Below the pieces are notes generated by a model. That model was given only the letters and a program-made list of their open reading frames with translations. It was not told where the DNA came from and did no database searches. From the NCBI GenBank assembly GCA_013416795.1, contig RQSC01001236.1, positions 30,474 to 52,572 on the forward strand: DNA of 22,099 nt, read 5' to 3'. Positions 3,182-19,371 of this stretch are shown here, piece by piece. Source of the DNA: Prasinococcaceae sp. CCMP 1430. Its lineage: Eukaryota; Prasinodermophyta; Palmophyllophyceae; Prasinococcales; Prasinococcaceae. A program made the translations under genes and the position numbers. Position 1 is the stretch's first letter. Every line of letters starts with the position of its first letter.

Positions 3182-3182
3182 N
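3182..3182. other. Single N, probable scaffold gap
   Basis: The N separates the 5' end of the minus-strand carrier from the first visible codons of the plus-strand CNNM protein, which begins immediately after it without a Met. Both genes are therefore cut at this point. Confidence 0.8.
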
Positions 3183-4511: not shown

Positions 4512-6987
4512 TCACGCGGCCTGCGCGGCGGCGCCCTGCTGCGGCGGGCGCATGGGCGCGTACGCGCCCATGCAGTGCGCCTGCCATCCGCCGTTGAATC
4601 GCACGCTGCCCGCCTCGTAGTCGTACACCCAACCGTTGTGCTTCGCGTTCGCCTCGCGCGGCTGTGGCTCGCCCGCGGCGGAGGAGGGACAAGGCGCGAA
4701 CACCAGCTGCGCGTCGTTGAGCATCCGCTTGTCGAACTCGCCGTTGTCCGCCAGCGCGATGCACGCCCGGCTGCCGGCGGCCGCCCCCATCCCCGACGGC
4801 ACGGACGCTGATATGGTGCCCTCGTACGCACGCAGCACGACGTCGTCCAAGGCCTGCGGCGAGTCGCACGGCACGAGGCGCATCAGCCGGTCCGATCCAA
4901 CGCCGGCACACAGCGGCGGCGTCGACGAGTCGGGCGCGAGCGTGCTGCGCAGCGTGAGCCGCCCGCCGCTCAGCGTCCACGCGAGCACGCCCGCCGCATG
5001 AAGCAGGTCGTTGCCGCAGGGCTGCGCCGAGAGCGGCGTGCCCGCCGCGGGCGGTGCGGCGCCGCCAGCGGACAGCGCGCCCGCAGAGGGGTCCAGCACG
5101 CCGCGGACGGCGAAGTCCTTGAAGCCCGCGCGCAGGTAGTCGGTTGTGCCGATGGCGCAGAAGCCGTGCGTGGCGATGGCGTTCATGCCAGACTGGGCGG
5201 TGAGGACCTGTGCGCACGTGACGTCAGCACGCGCATGCAGAGTGCAGCCCACCACCGTGCGCGCGCGTGCATGGATTCGTGCTGGCGTGCGTGCATTCGG
5301 CAACCGATCGGCACGCCCGTGTGCGTGCTCGTACGCGTGAACACGCCTAAGCGTGTGAATGTGTGCTATGCGCAGGCGCCCGGTGTGCACAAACAATCTC
5401 AAAAATCGCACACGCGCACGTACCTTGCGCACGCTCGTCCGGCCGGAGAGGTACGCGCTGGCCGTGTCGCCGCTCACCACCAGCGTGAGGCGCACGTCGT
5501 GCGCGTGCTGCGGCGAAAGCGAGGGCACCACACCGCTGGCGACGGTGGCGCTCCGGTCGTGCACGGACTGCAGCGAGGGCTCGAGGCGCCAGTCGCCGCC
5601 CGCCTCGAGCACGAAGTAGATTCCCACGGGGCGCACGCCGTTAAAGGTGCCGCGGCCGTCCACGCGCGCCGCCACGAAGGCCCCGCCGCCGCGGGTGACC
5701 TCGCCGCCCAGCGATACCGTCGCACTCACGCTGACGTCCTGCCACATGGCATCGCCAACCAGACTGAACGGCACGAGGTCCCCAGACCACGTCACCGGAC
5801 GCTCAGGCACGACCTGAACGAGCGCAGTACGGTTGCCCTTAGGGAAATTGGACGCTCCGGGAATGGGATCCCCACCAGCGGAGTCCTCTGCTGGAGCCGA
5901 ATGCCAGTCGTGGCGGACCTCGAAGGTCCCGGCCTGGTCGGCGAAGTATTGCGTCTGGTCGCCGAAGATGCGCCCGACGCCTTCGTCGTTTTCCGGATCG
6001 GCGTCGTCCGAGGCGAAGGCGACGCTCGTGTACGGGAGGGGAAACGGCTTCGCCTCGGGCCGCGTCTCCGGCAGGTCTATGCGCCCCTGTGCGCCCTCGA
6101 AAGAGTCGAGCGGCGCGACGGTGTACACGCAATCCGTTTCGATCTCGAGGAGGATCTCACCCTCGCAGACAGCGACGTCCGGGAGCCGCTCGAACATGTC
6201 CCGCTCGCCGCCGCCGCGTTTCGAGCTCGCGGGGTAATCGAAGCCGAGGCAGGAGCGCCACACGCCCAACGTGGGCTCCGCGCAGCCGTCGCTAGCATCA
6301 GTCGCATGTTCATCCGAGTCCTCGCGGCGGGGCGCACCGCCGACGCCGCGCATGTTGAGACTGTCTGCGTCAAAGACAAACTTGAAGGTGGCAACCTCCG
6401 GTGCGGTGTCGTACCACCCGAGTGACGGGCGCACGCACGACGAGTGGTACGCGCTCATCTTTTCGATGACCATGGCCCAGTTCGCGGCGACGCCGTCACC
6501 GCTCTCAGGCTCGCGCATCGTCACGTACGAGCCGCCATGTGTGAGCTTGCCACTCCCTTGGCCCACGGGCAAATAGATCCAACCGGGGCGCGTGAACTGC
6601 GTCGTGTGCGCCGCCATCCAGATGGGCGACCTCAGGTTATAGCTCCCCGTCCACGGCTGAGCAGCGTCCATCAGACCGCTAGAGAAGAAGGGGAAGCCGG
6701 AGTAGTAGGAACCGATCAGGTTCCATACGATGGTGCAAGTCATGCCCGCGTCCACGAAATTGCGGTTGATGGCGCGCGCCAGACAGCCGCCGCCCTCGAG
6801 ATCTGCGAACGTCGAGTCGTCCTCGGAGGCCCAGAGCGGCACGCCCGCGGCGCGCGCCGCGGTGGGGGAAGTCGCGCCTGGGTAGTGCACCCCAATAGCC
6901 CCCAGGCTCCCCCTGAGCTCGGCGTCCGCACCGACGGCACCGACGAGCTTGTTGGCCGTGGCACCCCACGAGCCGTCGCTGCCGATG
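4512..6987 (-). CDS. GALC: Galactocerebrosidase (glycoside hydrolase family 59), N-terminus missing
   Basis: Lysosome-type beta-galactosidase acting on galactosylceramide and related glycosphingolipids. Exons 6987-5424 and 5207-4512 join across a 216-base intron (donor gtacgt, acceptor cacag); the join gives SVRK|VLTAQSGMNAIATHGF in frame. The family block is clear: PLWASEDDSTFADLEGG holds the catalytic nucleophile Glu (codon 6824-6822), followed by INRNFVDAGMTCTIVWNLIG, AHTTQFTRPGWIYL and GGSYVTM. The lectin-like C-terminal domain of GALC follows (FEVRHDWHS, WQDVSVSATVSLGG, HGFCAIGTTDYLRAGFKDF). The part with the acid/base Glu lies beyond the N at 6988. After the GALC core comes an extra Cys-containing region of about 200 residues (from about 5115 down to 4512). 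I do not recognise it firmly; it might be a beta-trefoil-like carbohydrate-binding module. Confidence 0.93.
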
Positions 6988-13615: not shown

Positions 13616-13616
13616 N
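13616..13616. other. Single N, probable scaffold gap
   Basis: Ends the TMEM120 intron on the left and directly abuts a perfect tandem array on the right. The array may therefore be collapsed in the assembly. Confidence 0.8.
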
Positions 13617-13761
13617 CTCAGCCAGACGACTTGTACCAGCAGATGCTCAGCCAGACGACTTGTACCAGCAGATGCTCAGCCAGACGACTTGTACCAGCAG
13701 ATGCTCAGCCAGACGACTTGTACCAGCAGATGCTCAGCCAGACGACTTGTACCAGCAGATG
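13617..13761. repeat. Five perfect copies of a 29-base tandem repeat
   Basis: Five identical head-to-tail copies (5 x 29 = 145 bases) of a unit beginning ctcagccagacgac and ending gtaccagcagatg. There are no spacers. Because 29 is not a multiple of three, each frame cycles through three peptides (for example QPDDLYQQM). The array abuts the gap at 13616, so the real copy number is unknown. Confidence 0.95.
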
Positions 13762-14140
13762 CGGGGCGCGAAGTGCTCGCCGGCATGGACGCCCGGGACG
13801 GCTTCCGGGGTTGCCCAGTACGCGAGGAGGACCGGCGCCTGGCCGATGCGGTTGCGCGCCTGCTCGATCCGAGCGCAAAGGTGACCATCGCACGACACGC
13901 GCTTGTTCATCGACAACGCGGACGACTTCAAATCCGCATTCAACGCTATGGCCCGCGGCATCAAGCTGCTCAAGCACGCCATCAAGCCTCCGTGCGGCCA
14001 AGGCACGCGCTGAATATGTTATTAACAACAACCTCCAAAGCGAGACGCCCATCAACGACCCCGACAAGGAGGACGAGCTCGTCCCTAAGGCTGCACCGCG
14101 AAAGTCCAAGTTTCGAGGTGTGCACTACAAGTTGAAGCGC
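13762..14140 (+). pseudogene. Decayed gene with AP2-like motif
   Basis: Protein-like segments occur successively in three frames: MDARDGFRGCPVREEDRR...LADAVARLLDPSAK, then LFIDNADDFKSAFNAMARG...IKLLKHAIK, then RAAKARAEYVINNNLQSETP and PKAAPRKSKFRGVHYKLK. RKSKFRGVHY resembles the opening strand of an AP2/ERF DNA-binding domain, but the rest of that domain is not readable. No splice signals clearly explain the frame changes, so a frameshifted relic is the simplest view. GC is lower than in the flanking genes. AP2 identity is tentative. Confidence 0.45.
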
Positions 14141-14563: not shown

Positions 14564-14567
14564 GGGG

Positions 14568-14602
<35 letters not shown>

Positions 14603-14631
14603 GGGGGGAGGAGGGGGGGGGCTGCGCGTGG
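14564..14631. repeat. Poly-G tract
   Basis: A 68-base run that is almost pure G, including 31 uninterrupted G residues at 14571-14601. It lies about 70 bases upstream of the ATG at 14701 and could form a G-quadruplex. The exact length in an assembly is unreliable. Confidence 0.9.
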
Positions 14632-14700: not shown

Positions 14701-15505
14701 ATGGAGGGCCAGGTGGAGTACGCCGAGCGGCGGAGGCGGCTCAAGCGCGTGCGCGATGCCCTCGACAAGGCAGCCGCGCGCGCCGACAAGCTGCGCGCGG
14801 CGAGGGAGGAGCTCGTCAAGGCGGTGGAGGACGCGGCGTCGTTCGAGGTGCGCGCGCCGCGCCGCCGTGCGCACGCGAATGCGGGTGCTCGCCCGCGCCT
14901 GCTCGCGCCTGCTCACGCCCCTCTCGCGCCGACCCGACCCAACACAGCTCGAGGCCGGCCGACGCCCAGGCGACGGCGCCGCGCTCGACGCGGTCGGGCT
15001 CGCGCTGCGCCAGGGCAACGCGGCGGTGGGCGGGATGGTCAGGACGTGGCAGGCGAGCGTGGACGCCTCCAAGGTGCGCGAGCGAGGGCGCCCGAGCGCG
15101 CGTGGCGGCGAGCGCGCGACTCCATCGGCGCTGACGACCCCGTCTCCCCCCTCTGCCGTTCCCTGCCTCGTCATCCCCCCGCCCCCTCCCTCCCTTCGCC
15201 CGCTGTTGTGTGGCAAAGGAGGCCTTCCCGACGACGCTGCCCAAGGACTCGCGCCCCGACGACGCGGGGTCCTTCCTGGCGCTGCTGTCGCCGGCAATCA
15301 AGGTGCGCGAGATGGATCGAGCGAGCTGGGTGCGAGCCACCCTCAGCATCGCGCGCTCGCCGACGCGCTCGCTGACCCGCGCGCTCTTCAGGCGGAGCTC
15401 GCCGCGCACGCGCAGGCGACCGCCGACATGCAGACCGCGCACCGCGCGCTGCACGCCGACGGCGCGCCCGGCACATCGCGGCCCGCGAGGAGGAGCTCGC
15501 GCTGA
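14701..15505 (+). CDS. Small coiled-coil protein, unrecognised
   Basis: Four exons by splice reading: 14701-14847, 14948-15073, 15219-15302 and 15392-15505. All introns are in phase 0 with gtgcgc donors (100, 145 and 89 bases), giving about 156 residues. Exon 1 is a clean heptad-like coil (YAERRRRLKRVRDALDKAAA, ARADKLRAAREELVKAVEDA). Exon 2 encodes LDAVGLALRQGNAAVGGMVR, exon 3 a short TLPKDSRPDDAGSFLALLSP segment and exon 4 another helix (AELAAHAQATADMQTAHRAL). A membrane-curving (BAR-like) or tethering coil is conceivable but not shown. The last exon could be spliced differently. Convergent with the SRAP fragment. Confidence 0.55.
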
Positions 15506-15565
15506 GGACGGGCGTGCGGCTCGTCGAGGCCGTACTGTACACTCTGCTACTGTACACCACCGCCA

Positions 15566-15966
15566 TCAGTGCTCGCGCTCGAGCTTGGCGCGCTGCGGCG
15601 GCGCCTCCTCCTCCTCCTGCCGCTGCGCCGAGTCGGCCGCGTCGCGGCCGCCCGCTCGCCGCTTGGGCGACGGCGCCGCGCTGAAGAAGCCGCGGATGTC
15701 GGCGCCCGCGCGCGTGGGCTTGGGCGGCGTGTACGGCGCGCAGGCCTCGCTCGGGGGAATGGCATTTGGAGGGATTGTTGATCGCCGGGCTGACCGTGTG
15801 GGAGGTGAGGCCCTCCGCAGTGCCGCGCGTCCGGCGGGCGAACACGTCGGGCCGGTCGCCGCGCCGCAGCCACTCCCTGGCGGCCGCCTCGCCGCGCAGG
15901 ACGACGGGCTGCCGGTCGTGCAGCCACGCGAGCCCCTCGGCGGGCGCCGTCGCGCGACAGGTACTG
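15566..15966 (-). pseudogene. HMCES: SRAP/HMCES (YedK) abasic-site repair protein, 5'-truncated fragment
   Basis: HMCES-family proteins crosslink to abasic sites in single-stranded DNA through Cys2. Only the C-terminal part is here: APAEGLAWLHDRQPVVL (family I-H-x-R-M-P-V-I-L block), AAAREWLRRG and SHTVSPAINNPSK (family V-S-x-x-V-N block). The frame then shifts by about one or two bases near 15745-15765 into ACAPYTPPKPTRAG, IRGFFSAAPSPKRR and a Lys/Glu tail ending REH at 15566. IRGFF is PIP-box-like. The catalytic Cys2 half is absent: the frame ends upstream at about 15966, where GC drops sharply and mobile-element DNA begins. The frameshift could be a sequencing error; the missing half is not. 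Confidence 0.7.
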
Positions 15967-16084
15967 TCCTGGACACGTGAGAATTTTTTTGGACGGCGAT
16001 AAATTTTTCCGATCGAAAAATGCGGGGGCACAAAACAGTTAGGGTCGCTCGGCGAAAATAAGGGTTTATAAATGACTCGTCGTA
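15967..16084. other. Low-GC junction between SRAP fragment and transposon DNA
   Basis: An AT-rich island in otherwise very GC-rich DNA. It contains the hairpin attttTC/GAaaaat (16003-16009 with 16015-16021) and oligo-T and oligo-A runs. It marks an abrupt compositional break beside the truncated end of the SRAP gene. Confidence 0.5.
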
Positions 16085-16330
16085 GCTGTCGGGGTGGGCG
16101 CCGCCACATTTGGCGCTTGAAACCCACCTTCCTCACAACCTCGATGAGCTCGTCGCGGGTCTTCTTGCCCAAGTCCTTGAGCGCAGGGGCCTTGAGGCGC
16201 ACGTGGTATGGGGCCTTGTCCATCACGACGACGGCCATTGCGCCGATGGCGGTGGTACGCCGCGTACTACAGCGCTTCGAGTTCGCGACAAGTCGCACTT
16301 GGCCCGCCTGTGGGCATGCGCGTCCAGGGC
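16085..16330 (-). pseudogene. Possible DDE transposase remnant, 3' part
   Basis: The minus strand encodes IGAMAVVVMDKAPYHVRLK (Met codon at 16238), then KTRDELIEVVRK before a possible donor (gtgggt). VVVMDxAxYH is the form around the second catalytic Asp in DDE superfamily endonucleases (V-I-V-M-D-N-A-x-Y-H), and a K-x-x-L-I-x-x-[LV] helix usually follows. Upstream (16330-16262) the frame differs (ALDAHAHRRAKCDLSRT). That frame continues across the inserted element into the fragment at 17528-17617, so the element has split this gene. No intact catalytic triad can be assembled. Confidence 0.45.
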
Positions 16331-16334
16331 GAAG

Positions 16335-16520
16335 AGGTGAGCATGCGTGTGTATGTGCGGGCCGTGATGTGACGCGATGGCGAGCCTGATGTGACAGTTG
16401 CGTATCTATACTGACTTTTTGATGCGATCGTCGCACCGCACCTCGATCCGTTGGTTTAGTTATTTGAAAGGGCTCTGGCCCTTTTTAACTAGAAGGTTAT
16501 AACGTCCGCCTAACAAGCGG
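16335..16520 (+). repeat. Left terminal inverted repeat (186 bases)
   Basis: Identical over all 186 bases to the reverse complement of 17342-17527. It ends at the last base of the ccgcctaacaagcgg anticodon-stem segment of the tRNA-like gene. Directly inside this end, homology to the other arm switches from inverted to mirror. Confidence 0.97.
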
Positions 16521-16551
16521 AAGGCCGGCAGTTCGACTCTGCCATGGATTA
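16445..16551 (+). tRNA. tRNA-Val(AAC)-like gene with 33-base D-loop insertion
   Basis: A complete cloverleaf can be drawn. The acceptor stem gatccgt (16445-16451) pairs with atggatt (16544-16550; two G-U pairs), and the discriminator is A16551. The D arm is gtttagtt...ggttataac. The anticodon stem tccgc (16505-16509) pairs with gcgga (16517-16521), and the loop ctaacaa gives anticodon AAC (Val). The variable loop is aggcc. The T stem ggcag/ctgcc encloses loop ttcgact. Without bases 16462-16494 the order and lengths match an ordinary eukaryotic tRNA-Val. The insertion folds by itself: aaagggc/gccctttt-type hairpin, with tagtta/taacta pairing at its base. A T9 run (16580-16588) could terminate RNA polymerase III. 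Function is unproven. Confidence 0.6.
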
Positions 16552-16588
16552 GCAGTTCAAAAGCCGTGTGCGGGCTTCCTTTTTTTTT
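16521..16588. repeat. Left arm of a perfect mirror repeat
   Basis: Bases 16521-16580 read backwards on the same strand equal 17282-17341 exactly (60 of 60), and T runs extend the match by six more positions. The block starts at the base adjoining the end of the perfect inverted repeat and lies on the same symmetry centre (16931). It contains the T arm, acceptor 3' strand and terminator of the tRNA-like gene. Confidence 0.95.
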
Positions 16589-16695
16589 GTTGCCCTTGTT
16601 GCATCTTTGTTTTTGCCCGTAACGCTTGCCGCCGCGCATGGGCGCCCCCTCCCCCCCCCACCACCACCCCCTCCGCCCTCCCCCACCTGGTGCAA

Positions 16696-16893
16696 GAAAA
16701 TAAAACCCAGCACACCCTAATCCGCCGACCTGGTCCCCTAATCCGTCGGCCCTGCAGCGTCCATCGACCCCGGTACCCGCATCCGTCGACCCTGGTGCGG
16801 AAAAAAATTAAAACCCAGCACACCCTAATCCGTCGGCCCTGGTGCCCTAATCCGTCGGCCTTGGTGCGTCCGCCGACCCTGGTGCGCTAATCA
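16696..16893. repeat. Internal direct repeats of the mobile element
   Basis: A unit of about 34 bases (taaaacccagcacaccctaa plus tccgYcgRccctggt) occurs at 16701 and again at about 16809. A shorter motif close to aatccgtcggccctggtg recurs at least six times across this stretch with variable spacing. Confidence 0.8.
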
Positions 16894-17275
16894 GTGGGTA
16901 AATGACTGTCAGAAGTAACCACGGGAGAGCAGATACATAAATGGCTGGACATCAAACGTGACCACGGGAGACTAGATGAGGACAACACTATGTGGCATTA
17001 TCCGATGTAATCCACGTATCATCACACACCACCCTCGACCGAACCTCTAGACTAGTCTGTTCGTAAACATTCGGGGGTTACGTCCGAACTTACCACGAAG
17101 TGAAGATGTAATGAAGATGCAATCCATCTATCATCATAAGCCGCGGCGCCTGAGGCCCGGCGGCGACGACGGGAGTGTCGCATACGTCGCCGCGGTCGTG
17201 GACAATAAGGTGCAGGAGACAACGGGGGCTTGCGACGAGACGCCCGAGCCCACGTTCACTATCCTCACGACGCCG

Positions 17276-17341
17276 TTTTTTTCCTTCGGGCGTGTGCCGA
17301 AAACTTGACGATTAGGTACCGTCTCAGCTTGACGGCCGGAA
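17276..17341. repeat. Right arm of the perfect mirror repeat
   Basis: This segment is the base-by-base complement of what continuation of the right inverted repeat would require. Equivalently, it is the left block reversed without complementation. The T run here has 7 T against 9 on the left; inward of the T runs no further symmetry is evident. Confidence 0.95.
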
Positions 17342-17527
17342 CCGCTTGTTAGGCGGACGTTATAACCTTCTAGTTAAAAAGGGCCAGAGCCCTTTCAAAT
17401 AACTAAACCAACGGATCGAGGTGCGGTGCGACGATCGCATCAAAAAGTCAGTATAGATACGCAACTGTCACATCAGGCTCGCCATCGCGTCACATCACGG
17501 CCCGCACATACACACGCATGCTCACCT
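17342..17527 (-). repeat. Right terminal inverted repeat (186 bases)
   Basis: Exact reverse complement of 16335-16520. It carries the 5' half of the tRNA-like gene on the minus strand, including the D-loop insertion and anticodon loop. The 3' half next to it is in complemented form, so this copy cannot form the acceptor stem. Confidence 0.97.
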
Positions 17528-17617
17528 GAAGCGGGACCTGCGCGTACGGGTGTCCGCCCGGTTCACGCTGAACAGCGCTTGAGACGTGGCGCCGACTGCA
17601 AATCTGAAATCCCCGCC
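17528..17617 (-). pseudogene. Host gene fragment split by the mobile element, 5' part
   Basis: The minus strand reads GATSQALFSVNRADTRTRRS-RF up to the element boundary. If the element and one GAAG copy are removed, the frame continues into ALDAHAHRRAKCDLSRT at 16330 and below. A possible acceptor (gatttcag or tttgcag) lies just upstream near 17610-17600. I suspect it belongs to the same transposase-like gene as 16085-16330, but the family is not recognised from this part. Confidence 0.4.
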
Positions 17618-17628
17618 GCGCGTGCGTT

Positions 17629-19371
17629 TTGACCTGCCTGCGCTCCGCGTGCGTGCGCGCGCGCGCACGCCACGCGCCCACTGAGGTAACCGGCCCAGCG
17701 GCGTGCGCGCCCTTCCCCCGACCCTTTCCCCGTCCTCCGCTCCTCCCCCCCCCTCCCCACACACCCCTGTGCCCCTCCCCCTCTGCCGCGCCCCTCGCGC
17801 CCGCCGCCGCCGCCGTCGCCCCGACCGCTAGCGGGCGGCGGCGCGCGGCATCCGCGCGCTCCGCCCCGCGCGCGGCGGCCACCGATCCCGCCGATCCCGC
17901 CGATCCCGCCGATCCCGCGGAGTCCTCGAGCAACACCAACACAGCAGCCTTCCAATGGCGCGGCTTCAAGCCCCTCCCCGCCCTCGCCTCCGTTTCAATC
18001 GGCCTCGTCCTCTACCTTCTCATCCCGTGCCCCGCCCAGCTCACCCAGCAGGCGTGGGCCCTGCTGGCCATCTTCCTCACCACGGTCACCGGCCTCATCC
18101 TCGAGCCGCTGCCCGTCCCGGCGTGGGCCGTGCTCTCCCTCACCACCGCGCTGATGACCAAGACGCTCTCGTGGGACGCGGCGATGGGCGCCTTCACCAA
18201 CGACGTCATCTGGCTGATCACCGTGAGCTTCTTCTTCGCGCGCGGCATCGTGCAGTCGGGCCTGGGCGCGCGCATCGCGCAGGCGTTCGTGGCGCTCTTC
18301 GGGCGCTCCACCCTCGGCCTGTCGTACGGCCTGGCGGCCGCCGAAACCGTATTAGCACTTGCGATGCCCTCGGGCACCGCGCGCGCCGGCGGCGTCTTCA
18401 TGCCGGTGATCGACTCGCTCTCCAAAGAATCGGGCTCCACGCCTCACTCCAACCCCCGGCGTATGGGCGCCTTCCTGGCCATGTCGCAGGCGCACGGCGC
18501 GTCGGCGCACTCCTCGTCCATCTTCCTGACGGGCGCCGCGCAGAACCTGCTCGTCATCAAGCTCGCCGAGCAGGCCGGCGTGGTGTTCGCCAACGCGTGG
18601 ATGCAGTGGTTCGCGGCGGGCGTCCTGCCGTGCCTGGCGTGCCTGGCGCTCAGCCCGTACGCCGTGTACCGGCTGTGCGAGCCCGAGCTCAAGGACACCC
18701 CGGAGGCGCCCGCGCGGGCGCGCGCGAGCCTCGCGGCGATGGGGCCGCTCACGCAGGACGAGGCGATCATGGTGGCGGCCATGGGCGCCGCGGTGGTCAT
18801 CTGGGTGGGCGGCTTCGGCCTGCCGGGCGCCGTGGGCGCCCTGCTGGGGCTCAGCGTCCTGCTGGCGACGGGCGTGCTCTCGTGGGCGGACTGCATCGAC
18901 GAGGAGCCCGGGTGGTCGACGCTCACGTGGTTCTCCATCCTGGTGGGCTACTCCACGGCGCTCAACGAGCTGGGCGTCATCGGCTGGGTCGCAAGCAGCT
19001 GCAGCGGCCTCGTGGCGAGCCTCGGCCTGCCCACCGCCGGCGCGGTGGCGCTCATCCTCGCCGCCTACGCGCTCATCCACTACATGTTCGCCAGCCAGAC
19101 GGCGCACGTCGCCTCGCTCTTCGGCGCCTTCCTGAGCATGATGGTGCTCGCGGGCGGCGCCGGCCTGCCGGCCGCGCTCGCGCTGGGCTTCCTGACCAAC
19201 CTCTTCGGCGGCATCACGCACTACGCCGCGGGCCAGAGCGTGGTCTTCTACAACGCCGGCTACGTGAGCCTCGCGGAGTTCTGGACCATCGGCCTCAAGA
19301 TGTTCCTGCTGAACTCGGCCGTCTTCGCGGCCGTCGCCATCCCGTGGTGGAAGTTCCTGGGCATCATGTGA
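17629..19371 (+). CDS. DIT1: Plastid 2-oxoglutarate/malate translocator (DiT1-type, DASS/SLC13 family), start not visible
   Basis: Plastid inner-envelope antiporter exchanging 2-oxoglutarate for malate, linking carbon skeletons to ammonia assimilation. From FKPLPALASVSIGLVLYLL (about 17964) to the stop at 19369-19371 it matches the family throughout: QQAWALLAIFLTTVTGLILE, AFTNDVIWLITVSFFFARG, SSSIFLTGAAQNLLVIKLAE, WSTLTWFSILVGY, HYMFASQTAHVASLFGAF, LTNLFGGITHYAAGQSVVFY and IPWWKFLGIM, with about 12 hydrophobic helices. The N-terminal region is Ala/Arg/Ser-rich like a plastid-targeting peptide and includes four tandem Asp-Pro-Ala units (17881-17919). There is no in-frame ATG before the membrane part, and a stop precedes 17629. 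A C/T-rich tract with acceptor gctag (17831) or a donor gaggtaacc (17682-17690) suggests an upstream exon, which may have been displaced by the mobile DNA. Confidence 0.93.
   Translation: MTCLRSACVRARARHAPTEVTGPAACAPFPRPFPRPPLLPPPPHTPLCPSPSAAPLAPAAAAVAPTASGRRRAASARSAPRAAATDPADPADPADPAESSSNTNTAAFQWRGFKPLPALASVSIGLVLYLLIPCPAQLTQQAWALLAIFLTTVTGLILEPLPVPAWAVLSLTTALMTKTLSWDAAMGAFTNDVIWLITVSFFFARGIVQSGLGARIAQAFVALFGRSTLGLSYGLAAAETVLALAMPSGTARAGGVFMPVIDSLSKESGSTPHSNPRRMGAFLAMSQAHGASAHSSSIFLTGAAQNLLVIKLAEQAGVVFANAWMQWFAAGVLPCLACLALSPYAVYRLCEPELKDTPEAPARARASLAAMGPLTQDEAIMVAAMGAAVVIWVGGFGLPGAVGALLGLSVLLATGVLSWADCIDEEPGWSTLTWFSILVGYSTALNELGVIGWVASSCSGLVASLGLPTAGAVALILAAYALIHYMFASQTAHVASLFGAFLSMMVLAGGAGLPAALALGFLTNLFGGITHYAAGQSVVFYNAGYVSLAEFWTIGLKMFLLNSAVFAAVAIPWWKFLGIM

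Follow-up and report, generated by a model that had tools for sequence, protein, structure and literature searches.

A half-complemented repeat, in which mirror blocks adjoin a perfect inverted repeat, is most likely a sequence-handling artefact

Genes and features at the locus

The window, that is, the whole stretch of 22,099 nucleotides analysed here, is identical letter for letter to positions 30474–52572 of contig C37 of genome G000. The reading frame at 15171–16436 (− strand) matches the C-terminal part of the Pfam SRAP domain (27.6 bits, cut-off 27.1), and its piece at 16035–16436 matches no family. The one relative found among 133 candidates, P0121, is also an SRAP protein, and residues 58–259 are 87% identical. 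The alignment with P0121 starts at residue 58 (from window 16265 downwards), which leaves about 14 bases between it and the repeat block X listed below, so that the X/Y junction is uncovered. A transposase fragment was considered for this frame and dropped, since both the Pfam match and the relative are SRAP. The best two relatives of the adjoining transporter share 73% and 71% identity with it, and those further down are mostly from plants and green algae. The gene content suggests a eukaryotic source.

The repeat under study occupies 16279–17583. Its parts are as follows, with the evidence in parentheses.

16279–16334, + strand: X, outer block of the left arm, mirror partner of 17528–17583 (56/56 against the partner read backwards)
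16335–16520, + strand: Y, left arm, inverted-repeat partner of 17342–17527 (186/186 complementary)
16495–16543, + strand: incomplete tRNA-like sequence across the left Y/Z junction 16520/16521 (Rfam RF00005, 25.6 bits)
16521–16586, + strand: Z, inner block of the left arm, mirror partner of 17276–17341 (66/66; 16580–16586, within a T run, carry no information)
16587–17275, no strand: spacer of 689 bases between Z and Z' (a minisatellite, then DNA scoring as ordinary)
17276–17341, + strand: Z', right arm, Z reversed but uncomplemented (letter comparison, exact matches)
17342–17527, − strand: Y', right arm, Y reverse-complemented (letter comparison, exact matches)
17528–17583, + strand: X', right arm, X reversed but uncomplemented (letter comparison, exact matches)

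The minisatellite (about 16686–16895) is a dispersed one with a AATCCGTCGGCCCTGGTGC-like unit of about 21–22 nt and a higher repeat of 108–109 nt, and contigs C105, C108, and C41 of G000 carry further copies of it. The spacer DNA after it has one weak match elsewhere, on contig C23. Further features of the window are a GA microsatellite (2586–2654), a 24-base perfect palindrome, GCATGGGCGCGTACGCGCCCATGC (4550–4573), and a 45-base tract of almost pure G (14564–14608). Six of the 10 single Ns on C37 lie in the window, at 3182, 6988, 9048, 11804, 13616, and 21529; the one at 13616 directly precedes a 29-bp tandem array (13617–13762). Of the four single Ns that C37 has beyond the window, two come after runs of C.

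Symmetry of the two arms

The two arms were compared letter by letter about the coordinate sum 33862, and exact matches of four kinds were searched for across the window. Both analyses gave the same three pairs. Y and Y' are perfect reverse complements of each other (186/186), Z and Z' are perfect mirrors, i.e., identical when one is read backwards on the same strand (66/66), and X and X' form a second, outer mirror (56/56). The last seven letters of the Z/Z' mirror fall in T runs, so that its informative part is 59 letters (16521–16579). The symmetry ends at 16279 on the outside and at 16586 on the inside, with no match past either position. The arms show no divergence, and the junctions between the blocks contain no insertions or deletions. 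The right arm agrees with the true reverse complement of the left at 186 of 308 positions and differs from it at the other 122. The pattern is that of a 308-letter fragment reversed as a whole, with the complement limited to its middle. A repeat finder reported the Y/Y' inverted repeat but neither of the mirror blocks.

The first-pass annotation had described the inner mirror in register with the inverted repeats and had concluded that one arm is complemented in place without a shift at the junction; the letter comparison bears out both statements. It had also regarded the 186-base inverted repeats as terminal. They lie inside the symmetric unit, however: the outer mirror X/X' carries it 56 bases further on each side. 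The in-place complement thus stands, whereas the picture of one complemented block inside an element gives way, once the overlooked outer mirror is included, to that of a half-complemented 308-letter fragment.

Comparison with known repeat systems

Template switches often make perfect inverted repeats, with arms that are reverse complements (PMC7954356). The perfect 186-bp pair Y/Y', with inverted arms around a spacer, resembles such an ordinary inverted repeat or foldback arising by template switch or inverted duplication. However, X and Z are reversed without being complemented, unlike any template-switch product, and only 186 of the 308 positions in the second arm are the reverse complement of the first.

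The locus also resembles a transposon or MITE with terminal inverted repeats in its size (about 1.2–1.3 kb), its long inverted arms, and a 4-base direct repeat, GAAG. At the outer edges of Y and Y' (16335/17527), the flanks TCCAGGGCGAAG and GAAGCGGGACCT have the four bases GAAG in common, whereas at the edges of the symmetric unit (16279/17583) the flanks CTACAGCGCTTC and ACGTGGCGCCGA have nothing in common. Since GAAG is unchanged when its letters are reversed, the direct repeat follows from the mirror of X and needs no insertion. In contrast to terminal repeats, the inverted repeats lie 56 bases inside the ends of the symmetric unit, there is no outer direct repeat, and the matches on C105, C108, C41, and C23 cover the spacer only, so that no further copy of the element was found by a search that skips very common words and masked stretches. 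A transposon with terminal repeats is accordingly not favoured.

The one-strand mirror symmetry is shared with H-DNA mirror repeats, and the annotation had mentioned triplex geometry for the inner block, noting that the block is not homopurine. H-DNA has homopurine–homopyrimidine halves and a short spacer, whereas the block is of mixed purine–pyrimidine sequence, 689 bases separate its halves, and the mirror blocks have an inverted repeat between them. The mixed sequence and the long spacer rule out this geometry.

Comparison of the left and right arms

The tRNA-like sequence at 16495–16543 scores 25.6 bits against RF00005, below the gathering score of 29 (E value of 0.0081 for the 1011 bases searched). 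Its anticodon loop, CTAACAA, appears Val(AAC)-like by reading of the letters. A run of nine T lies about 36 bases downstream, within 16495–16588. The same Rfam search of those 1011 bases gave no tRNA match on the right arm, and no second copy of the tRNA-like sequence was found in G000. A true tRNA gene here was rejected, as the match is incomplete and below the gathering score, ARAGORN in its bacterial setting predicted no tRNA gene, and a genome-wide tRNA search placed nothing on C37 among the 63 matches scored of 263 candidates. Rfam gave no match above the gathering score anywhere in the window.

Oligonucleotide statistics show a mild preference for the left arm over the right. The spacer part 16900–17275 and the flank 17584–17900 score as natural in all four orders, the flank having belonged to the training set. 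When C37 was scanned in 60-base windows, the cluster 17289–17357 ranked third among the reversed-looking places in a scan that is unstable and confounded by Y. Single windows swing widely (17281 at the 12% quantile and 17279 at 38%; 17527 at 11% and 17525 at 2%), and the unusual Y sequence scores low on the left arm as well (16441–16481). For these reasons, little weight is given to the scan. With the weak tRNA-like match across its Y/Z junction and the mild statistical preference, the left arm looks natural, although the low score of that match and its absence from the 63 genome-wide tRNA matches count against this reading.

A faulty reverse-complement step as the probable origin

We consider the half-complemented repeat most probably to be a sequence-handling artefact, since no known DNA chemistry makes the pattern and a faulty reverse-complement step would. 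The annotation had left the choice between an assembly or strand-handling error and an undescribed rearrangement; the former is strongly favoured, and the latter is given a very low probability. A piece of 301–308 letters equal to the left arm (16279–16586) would have been turned to the opposite strand at some stage of assembly, gap filling, or scaffolding, or when the sequence was handled later. The routine at fault would have reversed the whole piece and complemented only its middle 186 letters, and the resulting letters would have been placed at 17276–17583. In the simplest case, the routine would leave lower-case letters uncomplemented and may have met a piece with lower-case ends, derived from quality-clipped read ends or from contig overlaps or fills. 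This would explain why the uncomplemented blocks coincide exactly with both ends of the copied piece.

When the left arm was reverse-complemented with a table that covers upper-case letters only, X and Z having been set to lower case by our own choice, the right arm was obtained exactly. Such a step suffices for the right arm; that it occurred, and that the ends were in lower case, we infer. Two settings can be envisaged. In the first, a read or short contig whose clipped ends were in lower case would have served as a fill, and the right copy may then be spurious. In the second, a true inverted repeat of 308 bp would have been assembled from three contigs, with the overlaps X' and Z' in lower case. 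The underlying biology is probably either an ordinary 308-bp inverted repeat or a locus with no right copy.

Case-sensitive translation of mixed-case letters is one type of reverse-complement error. Errors of this kind share with the present case the reversal of a whole piece, in perfect register, with a complement confined to part of it and edges free of insertions and deletions. Some tools write contig overlaps or fills in lower case, and some scaffolders mark abutting contigs with a single n and overlapping ones with lower case. The window contains no lower-case letter, nor do the first ten loci checked for case, which counts against an artefact based on case. None of the titles and abstract openings listed by literature searches describes such an artefact, which carries little weight because software faults seldom reach print. 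The joining convention of single n and lower case is not stated in the available portions of PMC8081667, PMC6191289, and PMC6733440.

If the artefact is of this kind, a faulty reverse-complement step would be recognisable from complex-sequence mirror matches lying in register next to inverted repeats. One mirror scan per assembly would flag wrong sequence that is missed by repeat finders looking for direct and inverted repeats only.

Alternative explanations

A post-assembly edit of the stored sequence, either deliberate or accidental (a test insert or file corruption), is the strongest of the alternatives, although we regard it as unlikely. The pattern is exact and, within the searches made, single, as would suit an edit. 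However, G000 carries identical letters, though it may derive from the same source as the window.

An error in decoding colour-space data (two-base encoded, SOLiD-type), by which a real 308-bp inverted repeat looks half-mirrored, is somewhat less likely still. In a two-base code, a sequence and its in-place complement share the same colours, and one wrong colour flips the decoding until the next wrong one. Only 2 of 307 colours distinguish the right arm from a true reverse complement of the left arm, both changes being from 2 to 1, but any in-place complement gives this count, so it does not discriminate. Moreover, a switched decoding should run past the arm, yet the spacer and flank on either side (16900–17275 and 17584–17900) score as natural, and two more switches would be needed exactly at the repeat ends.

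We consider it highly improbable that the letters reflect real DNA as they stand. In that case an undescribed process, such as parallel-strand copying, would have turned two short blocks (about 60 bp each) next to a perfect inverted repeat into their in-place complements where a copied fragment ends. The junctions without insertions or deletions are compatible with such an event, but they also require four edges to form without a base lost or gained. The arms show no divergence, and the readable part of C37 contains no second instance. DNA is copied and joined antiparallel, so that duplications arise as direct copies or reverse complements; an in-place complement would therefore need strands to be copied or joined in parallel, and we know of no polymerase, ligase, or recombinase that does so. 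We thus agree with the annotation that, by established knowledge, no standard step of recombination or replication yields an in-place complement. A real one would break the antiparallel rule of DNA copying and joining.

A chance match or low-complexity symmetry has a negligible probability, as the annotation had held: GA and G tracts, including those of the window, are often mirror-symmetric, but the present blocks are of complex sequence, 66 (59 informative) and 56 letters long and in one register, whereas the longest mirror match in 60 triplet-shuffled windows is 24 (mean 18.4), which rules this explanation out.

Mirror matches and related repeats elsewhere

The window contains 248 mirror matches; among the 14 longest, the 12 other than X/X' and Z/Z' are GA or G tracts mirroring themselves. 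C37 is 149,779 bases long with five long N runs and 10 single Ns, and its 104,307 non-N bases were scanned. Of the 27 mirror matches of at least 24 letters, 24 were discarded as low-complexity, and the remaining three are X/X', Z/Z', and a 29-base self-mirroring tract; these bases thus hold no further complex-sequence mirror pair. No reversed copies of this region were found, and X, Y, and Z have no match elsewhere in G000 by a search that skips very common words and masked stretches. The exact pattern across the left Y/Z junction occurs at 0 places in viral contigs, and that from the inner end of Y' at 0 places in prokaryote genomes; both collections may omit the records of this genome. If the fault were systematic, further instances might be expected, but those in single-copy DNA would have no repeat to reveal them.

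Outside the window, C37 carries an inverted repeat with perfect 81-bp arms that are 5 bases apart (62024–62190), without adjoining mirror blocks. Two stretches of 7.4 kb, C41:8420–15808 and C98:212410–219800, are 99.97% identical to each other and show no mirror instance between them. Their GC contents are lower (46% and 45%), and both carry tRNA genes. They appear to be either organelle-like copies or the arms of an organelle inverted repeat that has been divided between contigs. Contig C136 holds 36 of the 63 tRNA matches listed genome-wide.
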